DNA from: Spirochaetia bacterium
Lineage (GTDB): Bacteria > Spirochaetota > Spirochaetia > Sphaerochaetales > Sphaerochaetaceae
Direction: 5' to 3'
DNA: 64,000 nt
NCBI GenBank assembly: GCA_022482625.1
Contig: JAKVOU010000001.1
Coordinates: forward strand, 1,412,784-1,476,783
Below the pieces are notes generated by a model. That model did no database searches and was not told the DNA's origin. It saw nothing but the letters and a program-made list of their open reading frames with translations. This document shows positions 15,678-22,589 of this stretch, piece by piece (position 1 is the stretch's first letter; each line of letters begins with the position of its first letter). Position numbers and translations under genes: made by a program.

Positions 15678-16226
15678 ATGACAAGAGATGAAGCATTCGC
15701 ATTATTGAAGAAATACACGAAGAATGAAGCCCTCATTCACCATGGCATGGCCGTCGAGGCAACAATGAAAGCCTTTGCCAAGGAATTGGGAGAAGATGAA
15801 GCTTATTGGGGCAATGTAGGCTTGCTGCATGACATAGACTGGGACATGTGGCCTGAACAGCATTGCAAGAAAGCACCTGAACTGCTGAAAGAAGTCGGAG
15901 CTGATGAAGATTTCATCCATGCTGTATGTAGCCATGGGTGGAACATCTGCAGTGATGTGGAACCGACAAAAAAGATGGAAAAAGTCTTATACACCATTGA
16001 TGAGTTGACCGGATTGGTAAATGCAACGGCTTTGATGAGACCTACCCACATGGAAGGCATGACTGTCAAAAGCGTAAAGAAAAAATTCGCCAGTAAAGGA
16101 TTCGCTGCCGGCGTAAACCGGGACCTCATCAAAAATGGTGCCGATATGTTGGGAATGGACCTGTCACACATCATTCAGGTTACCATTGATGCAATGGCCT
16201 CTGTAGCACCTCAGATAGGGTTATAG
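15678..16226 (+). CDS. HD-domain hydrolase of unknown substrate
   Basis: A 182-residue HD superfamily protein. The first His is near residue 22 (LIHHGMAVE). The HD pair lies in GLLHDIDWDMWPEQH (about 52), and a later Asp sits in YTIDELTGLVNATALMRPT. This small form is common as an uncharacterised phosphohydrolase (HDIG-like) that cleaves nucleotides or cyclic nucleotides. The ATG is preceded by GGAGGAGG. It has its own upstream gap of about 110 bases and converges on pyrC, overlapping its 3' end by 16 bases. Confidence 0.8.
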   Translation: MTRDEAFALLKKYTKNEALIHHGMAVEATMKAFAKELGEDEAYWGNVGLLHDIDWDMWPEQHCKKAPELLKEVGADEDFIHAVCSHGWNICSDVEPTKKMEKVLYTIDELTGLVNATALMRPTHMEGMTVKSVKKKFASKGFAAGVNRDLIKNGADMLGMDLSHIIQVTIDAMASVAPQIGL

Positions 16227-17284
16227 TCACTTCTCAGAGAAATAAAGCCATCATATGGATAAGCCTTTGCTGCTTCCATGCTCCAAAGGCTTAGCTTTTT
16301 TCTGTCAGGAAGGGTAAAATCCACATCTTCGGCATCAAGGCCAAAGGCAGCATATACATTCCGACCGGTAAGATCCATGAGCCTTTTCCTGCTGCAGCCA
16401 TGTTCCCACAGGGCTTTCAGCAGCAACAGTGTCCCGCTGAAGCCGGGAATTCCGGCAGCTCCCCTCTGCTTATCCTTCAATGTATGGGGAGCATGGTCAC
16501 TTTCAATCCAATCAATCCTGCCATCCAGCAGACCTTCAAAAATCTCATTTCGGTCTTCTGCACTGCGCAGGGGAGGATTCATCCTGGCATAGGAAAGGGA
16601 AGACGCATCACAGCTGGTCAGCAGCGCATGGTGCGTTGTCGCCCCACAGGTCACATGCATTCCCTTTTCCTTGGCTTCAGCAACCAATGAAAGTGCTTTC
16701 GCCGTTGAAATATGGCAAATATGCAACGTCCCCCTGAAGCCGGTCTCAGCAGCAAGGCGAAGCATGTCACTCACGGAATCGATTTCAGCCTGTGCAGGAC
16801 GTGCAATACTCTGGGAAGAAAGATCCTGTGGATTGAAACGTGCCATGTCCAGCAGAGCTTCCTTCTCACAATGGACAGCCAGTACACCCTCATATCCGAC
16901 TTCGGCAAGGGTAGCAAAGACCATACGCTGGTCTTTTTCCTTTATGATCCCCATGCCTCCTGTACTGTTTCCGGCAAACAGTTTCAGACCGACGACCAGA
17001 GGGAACAGTTCCATCACTGCATAGGCCATCTGGACAATCTGGTCATGGTCGGCCTGCAAGCCTGCCCAGACATGATAGGAAATTTCCTTTCCAAGGTCCT
17101 TGATTGCAGCTTGGGCATCGGAAAGCCTGTCAAGCAAGGCATCCCGGCTTACCAAAGGCGGATCAGTATTGGGCATATCAAAAACTTCATCAATGCCACA
17201 TGCATAGGCAACCGAAAGGCCATGGACAAGCGTTTCCTTGTCTTTTTGATTCCAATCACGAAGATGCACATGAGGATCTACCAT
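16211..17284 (-). CDS. pyrC: Dihydroorotase
   Basis: A 357-residue amidohydrolase. The metal-binding HVHLR motif is in the first ten residues (VDPHVHLRDW), with CHISTAKAL, the C-terminal DHAPH motif and a Pro-Gly rich tail. It closes carbamoyl-aspartate to dihydroorotate, the third step of pyrimidine synthesis. The start ATG shares one base with the stop of pyrDK (TAATG), so translation is coupled; longer in-frame upstream sequence lies inside pyrDK. It is the last gene of the pyr operon and overlaps the convergent HD gene. No terminator is evident at its end. Confidence 0.9.
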   Translation of the reverse strand: MVDPHVHLRDWNQKDKETLVHGLSVAYACGIDEVFDMPNTDPPLVSRDALLDRLSDAQAAIKDLGKEISYHVWAGLQADHDQIVQMAYAVMELFPLVVGLKLFAGNSTGGMGIIKEKDQRMVFATLAEVGYEGVLAVHCEKEALLDMARFNPQDLSSQSIARPAQAEIDSVSDMLRLAAETGFRGTLHICHISTAKALSLVAEAKEKGMHVTCGATTHHALLTSCDASSLSYARMNPPLRSAEDRNEIFEGLLDGRIDWIESDHAPHTLKDKQRGAAGIPGFSGTLLLLKALWEHGCSRKRLMDLTGRNVYAAFGLDAEDVDFTLPDRKKLSLWSMEAAKAYPYDGFISLRSDYNPI

Positions 17285-19002
17285 TATTTCTTCCTTCCCA
17301 GCAACTGAGGCATTTCCTGTTCCAGATACCCGTATTCCATGAACGTCCCCCACTGGCAGGTAAGACGATCACCACAGGCACACTCTCCACACATGCCTAT
17401 CCCGCATCTGGTATTTCTTTCCATGGAAAGATACATGAGTCTTTTATCAGCACCGGCAGCAATCAGCTTGTCGGCGGCAATGGCCATGAACTTTTCAGGA
17501 CCGACTAAATAGCAAGCAGTCGTTTCATCGATATGCAAAGATGGAATCAGAGACAAGACCCGGCCAGGTATTCCATCATCGGCAACACAGGTGAAATTAC
17601 CATATGCAGCAAGTTCATCAGCAAGCAAAGGTTTTTCATCCTCCCTTTCACTTGTTCCGACCAATATATCCATTTTTGTATTCTGTCCTTGCAGTTTCCT
17701 AGCCAAGGCAGGAAGTACCGCAATTCCTGTACCTCCGGCAATCAGGATTGCCCTGGCAGTCTTGGCATTGACCAAAGGAGCACCATAGACGCCACGGACA
17801 TACAGGTCGCTTCCTACTTGGAGATTCCAAAGAGCGGCAGTAAAAGTACCCCGTCTCTTGATAATGAAAGTAACAGGATCATCACCGGCAAGAGAAAAAG
17901 GCTTCTCTCCCACTCCAGGAAGCCAAAGGAAAGCAAATTCTCCAGCTTCGGTAGGAAGTTTTCCATCAAGGGTAAGGACGATGGTATCATTGCCATGGAA
18001 ATTTATGCTGGTAACCGGCATCCGGCTGTATGCCATCTGACGTTGGGTCGAAAGGAACATATCTGCAGCATGGCTGTCAGCATCGACAAAATCATGCTTT
18101 ACGGCAACAAGATAGGATGGCCACAGCTTCTGATTTACTCTTCCAAGGGCAGAACCTATGCCTACTGCATCAGCACCGGCATCCATCAGCTTACGACAAT
18201 CTGCTCCTGTTGCAATCCCTCCCATGCCGATGATTGGCACTGTCGGACCGACAGCCTCTCGAATTGAAGCCACACAAGCCAGCGCCCGTTCCTTGACCCA
18301 GCTACCACTGCACCCACCTTTTCCACCAAGAGAGTTCTGAAGGATCGGGGCATTGGCAACACGATCCACATGTAAGGCAGGACCAGTCGTATTGATGGCT
18401 ACGATACCATCGGCACCAGCTTCAATACAGGCTTTTGCTATCAGGCCGATATCATCGACATTAGGAGTAAGCTTGACAAAAAGCAAAGATTTCTGACTTT
18501 GAACAGCTTTCCTGATTTCCCGTACATATGAACTTGCAATGCCGGCATCACAGCCGATTGAAGCCCCATAGCCAGCTGCAGCATGCGGACAAGAAAAGTT
18601 CAGTTCAATGGAATCAGCAATTGCATCGAATTTTTTGACCAGGATTATAAAATCCTCAGGGCAATCTGCCGAAACACTGACATTCAGGAAAGCCCGTAGA
18701 CCTTCATCTTTTACCTGTTTCAATTCAGGATAGACCGCATCCATCCCAGGATTTCTCAGTCCGACCGAATTACCGAAGTTTCCAAGACTGGTCTCACAGA
18801 TAATCGGTTCCCGGTTGCCAGGGTTTTCCTTCACTTGGAAGCTCTTTGTCGTAATGATATCAATCGCAGGTACCTTATGGTCAAAGTATCTGATCATCCG
18901 TGGCGTAGTCGATGCAACTCCACTTACAGTTGCAAGATAAAGCTGACGGGCCTCCCGTGCATGATTGCCGCTGAGCAGGCTGAAGAACTCTTTCCCTTCC
19001 AT
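17284..19002 (-). CDS. Fused dihydroorotate dehydrogenase (class 1B) and its PyrK electron-transfer subunit
   Basis: A single 572-residue chain. Residues 1 to about 320 are a dihydroorotate dehydrogenase barrel: FMN site elements GMGGI and GIGSALG, and active-site Cys in LNFSCPHAAAG near residue 137. Residues about 330-572 are a PyrK-type ferredoxin reductase: the FAD element KPFSLAG, the nucleotide-binding GGTGIAVLPAL, and four cysteines for a [2Fe-2S] cluster in CGIGMCGECACGDRLTC. Normally these are separate pyrD and pyrK products that form a complex oxidising dihydroorotate with NAD+. The stop of pyrF is directly adjacent to this start. The fusion is uninterrupted by any stop or internal ribosome site that I can see. 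Confidence 0.93.
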   Translation of the reverse strand: MEGKEFFSLLSGNHAREARQLYLATVSGVASTTPRMIRYFDHKVPAIDIITTKSFQVKENPGNREPIICETSLGNFGNSVGLRNPGMDAVYPELKQVKDEGLRAFLNVSVSADCPEDFIILVKKFDAIADSIELNFSCPHAAAGYGASIGCDAGIASSYVREIRKAVQSQKSLLFVKLTPNVDDIGLIAKACIEAGADGIVAINTTGPALHVDRVANAPILQNSLGGKGGCSGSWVKERALACVASIREAVGPTVPIIGMGGIATGADCRKLMDAGADAVGIGSALGRVNQKLWPSYLVAVKHDFVDADSHAADMFLSTQRQMAYSRMPVTSINFHGNDTIVLTLDGKLPTEAGEFAFLWLPGVGEKPFSLAGDDPVTFIIKRRGTFTAALWNLQVGSDLYVRGVYGAPLVNAKTARAILIAGGTGIAVLPALARKLQGQNTKMDILVGTSEREDEKPLLADELAAYGNFTCVADDGIPGRVLSLIPSLHIDETTACYLVGPEKFMAIAADKLIAAGADKRLMYLSMERNTRCGIGMCGECACGDRLTCQWGTFMEYGYLEQEMPQLLGRKK

Positions 19003-19893
19003 CTAGAGCGACGCCTCCCCGACCAATGCACGCAGATTTGCAATACAGAGGTCAAGCCAATCATCAGGGGCAGCACCATGTTTCCAAGGATGGGTCAGGG
19101 AACTGCTGCTGTTGATCCTTGCAAGCGGCATCGGATAGCCGGCTTTCTTAAGTGCAGCCATGACTTCTGTTGCGCTGCCACCCTGGGAACCCACGCCCGG
19201 AATCAACAAAGGAATCTGTCTGCCGCTCTCAGCATAATATGCAGCCAGCCGTCCCAGTTCCTCCATGTTGGTTGCTCCGACGACCGCACCGACTCCTTCG
19301 TGGATATCTGCCCATCCTGCGATGGCATGGGCAACGGCCATATAAAGCGGATACACATCACTTGCATCAACCTTATCCATCACCACAAGATCCTGCAGGT
19401 CTGCACCGCCAGGATTGCTCGTACGGTCAAGGATATATACACCCTTGTCAGGATAATAAAACGGAGATACTGAATCCGTTCCCATGTAAGGAGAAACTGT
19501 AACTGCATCAGTACCCCAGGCTTCAAAGGCTTCCTTTGCATAGTTGAGGCTGCTCCGTGCAATGTCACCCCGCTTGGCATCCATGATTACAGGAACACCC
19601 GGAAAAAAAGAGTCCAGCATGTCAAGGATATCGCAAAGACATTGTGAACCTGTAAAATCATCATCCCGAGGCTTGTCCAGACTCTGATAGTACCCGATGT
19701 TCGGCTTGAAGGCTGCAGGGAACAAGCCCCCCAATGACATCCTGCGAAACAGGTTGCTGAAGAAATCATTCATACGTTCCCTCAGCTCCTTTCCTTCAGC
19801 ATCAGGAAGAAGTTCAGGCTTGGGATCCAATCCCATGCAGACGATATTTCCTACTTGTCCGGCACTTTCTTTCAATTGCTCCAGATAGTTCAT
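19003..19893 (-). CDS. pyrF: Orotidine 5'-phosphate decarboxylase, long type
   Basis: A 296-residue protein with the catalytic Lys/Asp motif MDAKRGDIARSS near residue 102, plus CMGLDPKPELLP at the N-terminus and the phosphate-gripper region LIPGVGSQGG near the C-terminus. The length and the DPKPELLP block match the subgroup 2 decarboxylases rather than the ~230-residue E. coli type. It removes CO2 from OMP to give UMP. It lies 16 bases after pyrE and abuts pyrDK without a gap, in the middle of the operon. Confidence 0.93.
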   Translation of the reverse strand: MNYLEQLKESAGQVGNIVCMGLDPKPELLPDAEGKELRERMNDFFSNLFRRMSLGGLFPAAFKPNIGYYQSLDKPRDDDFTGSQCLCDILDMLDSFFPGVPVIMDAKRGDIARSSLNYAKEAFEAWGTDAVTVSPYMGTDSVSPFYYPDKGVYILDRTSNPGGADLQDLVVMDKVDASDVYPLYMAVAHAIAGWADIHEGVGAVVGATNMEELGRLAAYYAESGRQIPLLIPGVGSQGGSATEVMAALKKAGYPMPLARINSSSSLTHPWKHGAAPDDWLDLCIANLRALVGEASL

Positions 19894-19909
19894 TTTTTTC
19901 TCCTGTCAA

Positions 19910-20602
19910 TCATTTCTGTGGCATAAAACCGTTCTTTTCTCCCCATCCGAACGGATCACCTTTCCATTGTACCAGCAATTCCGCACCCTTGTCCCTGATG
20001 TATTCTTTTTCCAAGGCACATTGTACCATAAGATCATAGTCAAGGATAGAAAGGGCAGTACAGGAAGGATCCAGATCATCAAAGGCCTTGGCTGAAGCGT
20101 CAAGCCCATACGTAAAGATGGCAAAAGTATACGGACATACTCCGCCGGCAGCAACAATTGCCTGTACAGCCTTTATAGATGAACCTCCCGTAGAAATGAG
20201 ATCCTCTATCAAAAGGACGGAGGCCCCTCCATAACTGTGGCTGTCCAGGAGCCCTTCGATCTGCTGCTGCATGCCATGGTTCTTGCTGCTGCTCCTTACA
20301 TAGGAAAGCGGCAGTGCAAGTGCATCTGCCAATGTCGTGGCATGGGGAATCCCTGCAGTGGATGTCCCTGCAATGTTCTGGGGTTTGAAACCGACCTCCT
20401 CAAGCATAGCCTGGAAAGCCTGGCAAACCAATTTGCGCGCTTCCGGTCTTGAAAGCAACCGCCTGTTGTCATTGTAAATCGGCATCCTGTACCCACTGGC
20501 CCAGGTAAAGGGATCATCAGGCCTTAGCTTGATGGCCCCCAGCTCAAATGCCAAAGCGGCCAGTTTCCGTCCATAGTTCTCCCTGATGTCACTGCTGTTC
20601 AT
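19910..20602 (-). CDS. pyrE: Orotate phosphoribosyltransferase
   Basis: A 230-residue PRTase. The flexible-loop region (SYVRSSSKNHG) and the PRPP-binding motif VLLIEDLISTGGSS near residue 130 are clear, and the N-terminal GAIKLRPDDPFTWASGYRMPIY block is the orotate-site signature. It joins orotate to PRPP to form OMP for pyrF. ATG 20602 with GGAGA upstream is chosen over the longer open frame, which overlaps pyrBI. It starts 10 bases after the pyrBI stop. Confidence 0.94.
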   Translation of the reverse strand: MNSSDIRENYGRKLAALAFELGAIKLRPDDPFTWASGYRMPIYNDNRRLLSRPEARKLVCQAFQAMLEEVGFKPQNIAGTSTAGIPHATTLADALALPLSYVRSSSKNHGMQQQIEGLLDSHSYGGASVLLIEDLISTGGSSIKAVQAIVAAGGVCPYTFAIFTYGLDASAKAFDDLDPSCTALSILDYDLMVQCALEKEYIRDKGAELLVQWKGDPFGWGEKNGFMPQK

Positions 20603-20612
20603 GATCTGTCTC

Positions 20613-22199
20613 CTATTTTCCCCAGATTTCCTTGAAGGAATGGGTCTTTCCGCAATATGCACATGCATATTTGTTGTCACTTGTACGATAGAACATTGCC
20701 GGTACATTCTCCCCTGCAGCAGGAGAGGAAATGCAGGCGTCGTTCTTGCAGGCCAAGTCTGAAAAGTTGTAAATCCGAGGAGGCATCTTTGTCCGGTACT
20801 TTTCAGCAACCTTGCCATTCTGGATGATATTGAGCGTACAGCCAGGGGCAACTGCAGCCAACCGTTTCAGTTCCTTTCTGGAAAATGTCTTGTCACCAGG
20901 CCGGAACAGAATACCTTTATATAACCCGTCGTGCCCCTGGCTGACCCATTCACCGCCCTTGCCATCATCAAGACCGAGTACCCTTGACATCAATGCCATA
21001 TGGGATCTGATTTCGGCCGGTGTATCACCTTTGCAGATATGGTCGATCACAATACCATCCTTTATCGGATGTACACCTTCGCTGTATACCTTGGCCTTCT
21101 TGTTGCATTCCGCATCCGGCACCCTGAAAATATACTCTTCGTCCTTGTAGCTTGGCTTGCTTTCTTCCTGCGGCAGGAAGTCTGCACCGATCTTCCCTCC
21201 GATCAGCCCCAGCAGCACGATTCTTACATACATACCGTTGATAGATTCCCTTTCCCATGCATTCAGGCTGGTATCATCAAGAAATGTCGGTATGGTCGGT
21301 GTAAGCTTATGCCGAGGAAGCGGATGATAGAACTTGCAGTCAGCAGGCAAAAGAGGTAAGAATTCAGCCCTGAACGTAATTGACTTTCTCAGTCCATCCT
21401 GCCTTTGGAGAATCTGTTCACCCATTCTTTCCAGCTGAGGTCTGGTAAAATACCATTTATGGGCCACATCAGGTGCAGAAAGATATTCACGTATGGAAGG
21501 AAATGTCCGTACTTCAAATCCGTTGTCCTTCATCGTCTGCAGGTAGGATGCAGGCATAGAAAGTTCATCAGGTGCAATCAAGTCAACTTTCACATGCTTG
21601 AATATATTCAGTCCATTGGCCTTGGAATGTACGGTCCTTCCATGGAAAAGGTCACCGACCATGGCCAGATGGATACTGTCATAACTCCATTCATTGTCTT
21701 CAAGGAACGTAAACTCATCAAGCAGTTCCTGGGTAGGATGTTCGTGCCTGCCGTCCCCCGCATTGATGAATGCCGGTGTATAGGACAGATGGTTACGCCT
21801 TGCATAGGCTCCGCAGGTTTCTTCCAGATGCCGGCACAGGCCTTCGACTTTGCTACGGATGACAAAGATGGAATTCCTGTAGCCCGCCAAAGTATTGAAG
21901 GTATCGCTGAAACTTTCCCCTTTGTTGATGGAAGAACTTTCACTATGCAGTTCACTTACCTTGACAAGATGAAATTCCGCGGCATTCCTGAAGGATTCCT
22001 TTGTACGGGTAGAGTCTTCCAGAAAAACTTCATAGATGCCGAAATCCGGATCATTGATCCTGAACTCATCCAATTCAGTCTTGTCTCCGCTCAAGACGGC
22101 CTGTTTCAGTTGTCTGACCTTGGAAAACAGATACTTTCTCTCTTCGATAGTGAAGTCATCGATTACCGTAAGAGACCTGGACTTGAATACGTTGTGCAT
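20613..22199 (-). CDS. Fused aspartate carbamoyltransferase catalytic and regulatory chains (PyrB-PyrI)
   Basis: A single 528-residue chain. Catalytic part: carbamoyl-phosphate motif DSTRTKESF (about 60), HPTQELLDEF (about 140), GDLFHGRTVHS and HPLPRHKLTP, ending near residue 350. Regulatory part: a nucleotide-binding domain starting near VYSEGVHPIKDGIVIDHI, then a zinc domain with paired cysteines (CKNDAC and CAYC) close to the C-terminus. ATCase condenses carbamoyl phosphate with aspartate; the regulatory chain allows nucleotide feedback. Such fusions are known from spirochaetes and Thermotoga. The ATG 22199 has GGAGG directly after a terminator T-run. It is the first gene of the pyr operon. 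Confidence 0.94.
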   Translation of the reverse strand: MHNVFKSRSLTVIDDFTIEERKYLFSKVRQLKQAVLSGDKTELDEFRINDPDFGIYEVFLEDSTRTKESFRNAAEFHLVKVSELHSESSSINKGESFSDTFNTLAGYRNSIFVIRSKVEGLCRHLEETCGAYARRNHLSYTPAFINAGDGRHEHPTQELLDEFTFLEDNEWSYDSIHLAMVGDLFHGRTVHSKANGLNIFKHVKVDLIAPDELSMPASYLQTMKDNGFEVRTFPSIREYLSAPDVAHKWYFTRPQLERMGEQILQRQDGLRKSITFRAEFLPLLPADCKFYHPLPRHKLTPTIPTFLDDTSLNAWERESINGMYVRIVLLGLIGGKIGADFLPQEESKPSYKDEEYIFRVPDAECNKKAKVYSEGVHPIKDGIVIDHICKGDTPAEIRSHMALMSRVLGLDDGKGGEWVSQGHDGLYKGILFRPGDKTFSRKELKRLAAVAPGCTLNIIQNGKVAEKYRTKMPPRIYNFSDLACKNDACISSPAAGENVPAMFYRTSDNKYACAYCGKTHSFKEIWGK

Positions 22200-22210
22200 A
22201 CGCTTCCTCC

Positions 22211-22241
22211 AAAAAAAAATCAGCCTTGGAAAAGACTGATT
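22211..22241 (-). terminator. Attenuator terminator in front of pyrBI
   Basis: On the minus strand a 10-bp stem (AATCAGTCTT / AAGGCTGATT, one G-T pair) with a TTCC loop is followed by a run of nine T. It ends directly at the pyrBI ribosome site. It can only terminate before the operon, so it must be regulatory. The leader peptide stop codon overlaps its 5' arm. Confidence 0.85.
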
Positions 22242-22324
22242 CAACAAATAAGAAAGAAAAGGGAAAAAGGTGATAAACCCGGTCTGTTGCTGCATAGGGT
22301 ACAGCCCCGCCAATTCATCTGCAT
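22241..22324 (-). CDS. Candidate leader peptide of the pyr operon attenuator
   Basis: A 27-codon frame, MQMNWRGCTLCSNRPGLSPF followed by a pyrimidine-coded end (SLFFLIC), begins at ATG 22324 with a GAGGAGG site eight bases upstream. Its TGA stop overlaps the base of the attenuator stem. The mRNA over codons 18-26 is extremely U- and pyrimidine-rich (CCUUUUUCCCUUUUCUUUCUUAUUUG in two pieces). This layout parallels E. coli pyrBI. There, RNA polymerase stalls on U-rich leader when UTP is low, the trailing ribosome catches up, and it blocks the terminator. The peptide itself need have no function. It is inferred from layout; no homologue is known to me. Confidence 0.6.
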   Translation of the reverse strand: MQMNWRGCTLCSNRPGLSPFSLFFLIC

Positions 22325-22589
22325 ACTTCTGCCCTCCTCACCTTTAGGTACTACCCAATTTACATTTCTGCCTATTTTGCAACAAATCATATATTTCTTC
22401 AAGCATCAAAAGAGACTTTTTTCAATCAAATATCCAAATACATAGGGTGACCCATGCTATCAGGTAACAGTTCTTGGCATATGCGTGCAAAGCGTACATC
22501 AATTACCTTACACCATGACAATTTTGATTTTCAAAATGAAAACTTACGTCAAATCTGCACCATTACTATCACATATTTGATATCTATCT

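Follow-up and report, generated by a model that had tools for sequence, protein, structure and literature searches.

A candidate leader-peptide attenuator before the fused pyrBI gene of Sphaerochaetaceae, with a co-varying helix predicted to seal the leader ribosome site

The leader and the operon behind it

The interval upstream of the fused pyrBI gene of a Spirochaetia bacterium raised the question of whether pyrimidine synthesis in this lineage is governed by a translation-coupled attenuator of the kind known from E. coli pyrBI. The window, that is, the whole stretch of 64,000 nucleotides that was analyzed, carries the interval on its minus strand, and the parts that were recognized are listed in Table 1. 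A 27-codon leader with a strong Shine-Dalgarno sequence (SD), running through a U-rich stretch towards an intrinsic terminator, had been proposed in the preliminary description, and this was borne out on the minus strand, where the pyrimidine-rich tract sits within the leader ORF. The T-run was likewise found to end at the pyrBI SD (the last T at 22211, the SD from 22210). Two further statements held only in part. The leader stop codon, placed inside the 5' arm of the terminator, does overlap this arm, but only by the first two bases of the stem. The stem, described as perfect, is an unbroken run of 11 pairs with a folding energy of -11.4 kcal/mol, but not all of them are Watson-Crick pairs, two being G-U (and three G-C). 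The promoter of the window leader was weak by consensus, and the fold of the whole leader was unremarkable (z = -0.85).

Table 1. Parts of the predicted attenuator and of the pyr genes behind it, in window positions
Feature	Position	Strand	Basis or remark
Leader ORF, 27 codons and stop	22241..22324	-	ORF reading; frame conservation in the family
Leader ATG and stop TGA; peptide MQMNWRGCTLCSNRPGLSPFSLFFLIC	22324-22322 and 22243-22241	-	
Leader SD, AGGAGG	22338-22333	-	sequence
Predicted sealing helix, 5' arm, AAAGGTGAGGAGG	22333..22345	-	includes the leader SD; family co-variation
Predicted sealing helix, 3' arm (anti-SD), TCACCTTTTTCCC	22261..22273	-	folding; family co-variation
Pyrimidine-rich tract TTTATCACCTTTTTCCCTTTTCTTTCTTATTTG, presumed UTP-sensitive slow zone	22245..22277	-	sequence; family T enrichment against control terminators
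Predicted intrinsic terminator hairpin, GAATCAGTCTT-TTCC-AAGGCTGATTT	22217..22242	-	11 pairs, loop TTCC
Terminator T-run, nine T	22211..22219	-	first three T inside the stem
pyrBI SD, GGAGG	22206..22210	-	adjoins the terminator T-run
pyrBI, fused aspartate carbamoyltransferase catalytic and regulatory chains	20613..22199	-	ATG at 22199
pyrE, orotate phosphoribosyltransferase	19910..20605	-	start inferred
pyrF, orotidine-5'-phosphate decarboxylase	19003..19893	-	
Fused pyrD-pyrK, dihydroorotate dehydrogenase	17284..19002	-	
pyrC-like ORF, dihydroorotase	16211..17353	-	translation inspected only; start uncertain

PyrB and PyrI form one fused protein, which matched NF009916 with 799.9 bits against a cut-off of 800. 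Together with pyrE, pyrF, the fused pyrD-pyrK and the pyrC-like ORF, the predicted operon therefore covers all steps from carbamoyl phosphate to UMP. The five ORFs (16211-22199, minus strand) form one unit behind a single attenuator. The upstream neighbour is a gene for a BMP-family lipoprotein, which starts at about 22771 on the plus strand and is divergent, and the hairpin therefore does not belong to the 3' end of a different gene. The carA gene lies elsewhere in the genome (G000:C1:1885719), and no such attenuator was found at carA, which was checked in the genus. Upstream of carA in three genomes of the genus (L201-L203), repeated TTGTTGCAA / TTGCAACAA-like inverted motifs were observed, perhaps a repressor site. 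At L205, the region just 5' of a uracil permease-like gene (uraA) holds a weak hairpin and, after it, ten T that adjoin the ribosome site; in this one species, it may be a second attenuator.

Conservation and specificity of the leader

A total of 111 pyrBI 5' regions were collected from Sphaerochaetaceae, a family whose genomes group together and to which the host is assigned, and the comparison of related genomes that the preliminary description had called for agreed with it in frame, tract and hairpin. A T-tailed hairpin was present within about 150 nt of pyrBI in 108 of the 111 regions, the exceptions being L066, L093 and L110. The leader start was picked by SD strength alone, which avoided circularity, and the frame that followed was then read towards the hairpin. 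In 62 of the 64 non-redundant leaders, no stop codon interrupted this SD-defined frame before the terminator, compared with 26 and 18 for the other two frames, and in both exceptions a GTG start with an open frame lay nearby. Of 94 leaders, 70 had their stop codon at -10 to +12 relative to the start of the stem, and in 21 it lay further on. The peptide sequence itself was not conserved and differed strongly between genera. Among 23 close leader pairs, substitutions at the three codon positions numbered 22/14/14, of which 37 were non-synonymous and 13 synonymous. This pattern indicated that selection keeps the leader frame open while the peptide drifts freely. In genome G044, two complete pyrBI genes were seen (L010 and L048), each with its own leader and attenuator, by contamination or duplication.

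The specificity of the layout was assessed in 464 kb of control DNA, comprising 20 random 20-kb stretches from seven family genomes and the window. It contained 131 terminator-like sites, 14 of which precede an SD-led gene. Only the window's own pyrBI had all three elements together: the hairpin, an ATG leader with a strong SD that extends to it, and an SD-led gene within 95 nt. A short TTG ORF at one other site was left out of this count. The 24 nt before the hairpin contained 46% T at pyrBI, compared with 29% at the 131 control sites (p about 1e-14); such a T-rich tract is the sequence correlate of the presumed UTP-dependent pausing. The composition profile of the family was rich in T between -7 and -24 before the hairpin, with a C-rich patch at -19 to -24, and the tract was less T-rich in some Sphaerochaeta leaders.

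Outside the family, the same layout was found before the fused pyrBI in a Treponema-type genus, where long SD/tract duplexes were again present, and in several other spirochaete families; among the other spirochaete families examined it was absent in some. In other spirochaete families (L158, L159 and L160), the upstream gene has its stop codon at a strong terminator just before pyrBI, as in E. coli rph-pyrE, and this arrangement is possibly a second mode of coupling in spirochaetes.

Pairing between the leader SD and its tract

A helix between the leader SD and the pyrimidine-rich tract, which had been missed in the preliminary description, is new here. When the window RNA was folded, the leader SD was about 11% paired before the tract was made and 99% paired afterwards. 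For the family, the mean SD pairing was 0.50 at first and reached 0.70 as the last 20 nt were added, compared with 0.63 for shuffled tracts. A separate shuffle test of the SD pairing gave a mean z of -1.2, with 30% below p 0.05. In the window's own leader, the pairing of the SD was not stronger than with a shuffled CU-rich tract, and the claim of selection for the seal therefore rests on the family. Because CU-rich tracts pair with any SD, the shuffle test was too blunt, and it was therefore replaced by a permutation of cognate against non-cognate pairs with controls.

In this co-variation test, the duplex energy of the SD region was calculated against the last 35 nt before the hairpin from its own and from other genomes, for 69 non-redundant leaders. 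Cognate SD/tract pairing was far better than non-cognate pairing, with z = -9.7, and -7.8 when the permutation was made within genera. The controls gave 0.0 for the SD against the early ORF body, -0.5 for the segment upstream of the SD and +2.3 for the pyrBI SD, which, if anything, appeared to avoid the tract. By eye, the matches were seen to change together in one subgroup, in which AAGGT, AAGGG and AAGGAT face ACCTT, CCCTT and ATCCTT. Since the leader SD pairs and co-varies with its own tract, these results suggested that the SD would be free until the tract is transcribed and would then be sealed.

It was worth noting that nine leaders (L069, L070, L080, L082, L087, L090, L092, L096 and L100) carried no SD, and that their ORFs still reach near the terminator. 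Such leaders occur in one clade of the family, that of five genomes with PyrR, and in another genus. By our reading, their ATG follows closely on the -10 box, near the presumed transcription start, and these leaders may be translated as leaderless mRNA. SD-less leaders keep the ORF although the seal is not available to them, and the seal is thus dispensable in some cases.

The proposed switch, its alternatives and known systems

Based on these data, the pyrBI leader is probably an E. coli pyrBI-like, translation-coupled and UTP-sensing attenuator in which a co-evolving SD seal would time the loading of the ribosome. We are less confident that the seal takes part in the switching than that the leader is an attenuator at all. 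Comparative sequence evidence supports the ORF, a layout that depends on its translation, the U-rich tract and the terminator, as well as the co-variation of SD and anti-SD and the lack of PyrR. The sensed signal is probably UTP, as the base composition of the tract and the target genes suggest, and we infer both termination at the predicted terminator and the kinetic order of events. While the polymerase copies the leader RNA, the leader SD would be free at first. When UTP is plentiful, the U-rich tract would be made fast, fold back on the SD and seal it; no ribosome would then follow, the terminator would form and transcription would stop before pyrBI. When UTP is short, the polymerase would linger in the U-rich tract while the seal was still incomplete, and a ribosome would load. 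This ribosome would translate to the foot of the terminator and block the formation of both seal and terminator, and transcription would continue into pyrBI-E-F-DK-C. The tract would in this way have a double role, slowing the polymerase at low UTP and sealing the leader SD once made. A working seal would explain the timing of a single ribosome relative to a polymerase at a distance of 70-90 nt.

A simpler account, in which pausing and blockage by the ribosome do all the switching and the SD/tract pairing only lowers background translation or steadies the RNA, would explain the layout and the T-rich tract, and it fits with the existence of leaders without an SD and with the known E. coli model, which needs no seal (PMC10135430). 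It leaves unaccounted for a strong co-variation that involves only the leader SD and the 35 nt preceding the hairpin, and in which the pyrBI SD takes no part; we regard this account as rather unlikely. An attenuator of the trp or his type, in which a ribosome stalled at particular codons picks between two RNA structures, would share the translated leader ORF and the terminator. No common codon run was found, however; the peptides vary by genus, codon use is spread over many residues, and the leaders tolerate non-synonymous change. The co-varying helix, moreover, is located entirely 5' of the terminator stem, both in the window and in the regions tested, and is therefore no antiterminator. Attenuation by amino acids is thus very improbable. 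Alternatively, the terminator could be a stray one and the ORF fortuitous, or the hairpin could simply close an upstream gene, without any regulation; in a few other spirochaete lineages an upstream gene ends right at the hairpin. In the window the upstream gene is divergent, and the layout is unique in the 464 kb of control DNA and conserved in the family. This conservation refutes the explanation, which is scarcely credible.

PyrR, the common means of pyr control outside enterobacteria, would be a protein that binds the leader RNA with UMP or UTP and favours the terminator. Over the cut-off, a PyrR gene was found in five of the 139 family genomes and in none of the other 134, the window's genome among them; there, the look-up that the preliminary description had suggested yielded only a weak match below the cut-off. 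The Rfam model of the PyrR site (RF00515) gave no match in the window at the gathering score and none in L001 at E up to 1. Weak, sub-threshold site matches were seen beside the pyrR gene itself (L115-L117) in the five PyrR-bearing genomes (L115-L118), and no site match was found before pyrBI in the same genomes. The preliminary description had been concerned with a leader frame lost while a PyrR structure was kept; what was found instead was a conserved frame, no Rfam PyrR site in the window and no PyrR gene in its genome, and PyrR-type control is therefore largely refuted and of negligible likelihood.

The translation-coupled attenuator favoured here can thus be set beside the known systems. 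It resembles the PyrR attenuators of the Bacillus type (RF00515) in that a termination choice controls a pyr operon, and differs from them in having neither a PyrR gene nor a site match and in relying on translation of the leader. A leader peptide and a terminator are shared with the amino-acid leaders (trp, his, thr, leu), which differ by their regulatory codon run and by an antiterminator competing with the terminator stem, neither of which was found here, the latter as judged from the co-varying helix. With E. coli rph-pyrE the attenuator would share an upstream frame that is translated as far as a terminator in front of a pyr gene, but in the window this frame is a dedicated short leader, preceded by an SD of its own, and not the gene of an upstream enzyme. 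In a survey of 2010, leader-peptide systems were known only in Proteobacteria and Actinobacteria, to which Firmicutes were added, with no spirochaete or pyrB named (PMC2965389). No account of spirochaete pyrBI attenuation or of SD sealing was found in the literature searched, and an earlier mention is possible.

The closest likeness is that to E. coli pyrL-pyrBI, where high UTP leads to fast transcription and termination (PMC5021804) and, according to recent work, no NusA-dependent hairpin stabilises the pause (PMC9291695). Sequence comparison agreed with the E. coli arrangement claimed for this locus: a short SD-led leader ORF runs into a terminator, a U-rich tract lies just before the hairpin, the terminator adjoins the pyrB start and the target genes belong to pyrimidine synthesis. 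The SD is complementary to the tract in both (CGGGAGG / CTTCCCG in E. coli). Unlike in E. coli, the system lies in another phylum, the fused PyrBI heads a whole pyr operon, and many leaders stop at the stem foot instead of continuing beyond it. The leaders, compared by inspection, share no peptide or RNA sequence similarity. Since the sequences are unrelated and the distribution in spirochaetes is patchy, an origin independent of the enterobacterial pyrL is plausible. The findings would extend the textbook E. coli pyrBI logic to a distant phylum, in which about 100 genomes give evidence of selection, and a seal formed by the same tract that presumably senses UTP as it is made would be an added, testable part.

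SD/tract co-variation is documented here for spirochaetes and was not found described for E. coli in the literature searched. SD/tract complementarity was present in all five gammaproteobacterial pyrBI leaders compared (E. coli, Klebsiella, Proteus, Photobacterium and Aeromonas), with cognate pairing ranking 5th of 120 permutations; the statistics are weak, and the complementarity is only suggestive. We tentatively propose, with somewhat less than even confidence, that in pyrBI attenuators generally, E. coli included, the tract would act both as slow zone and as anti-SD, the switch being a race between ribosome loading and tract completion, and more than the pursuit of a paused polymerase by a ribosome, that had separate origins in spirochaetes and Gammaproteobacteria. 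As E. coli has the matching complementarity, the same question applies there.
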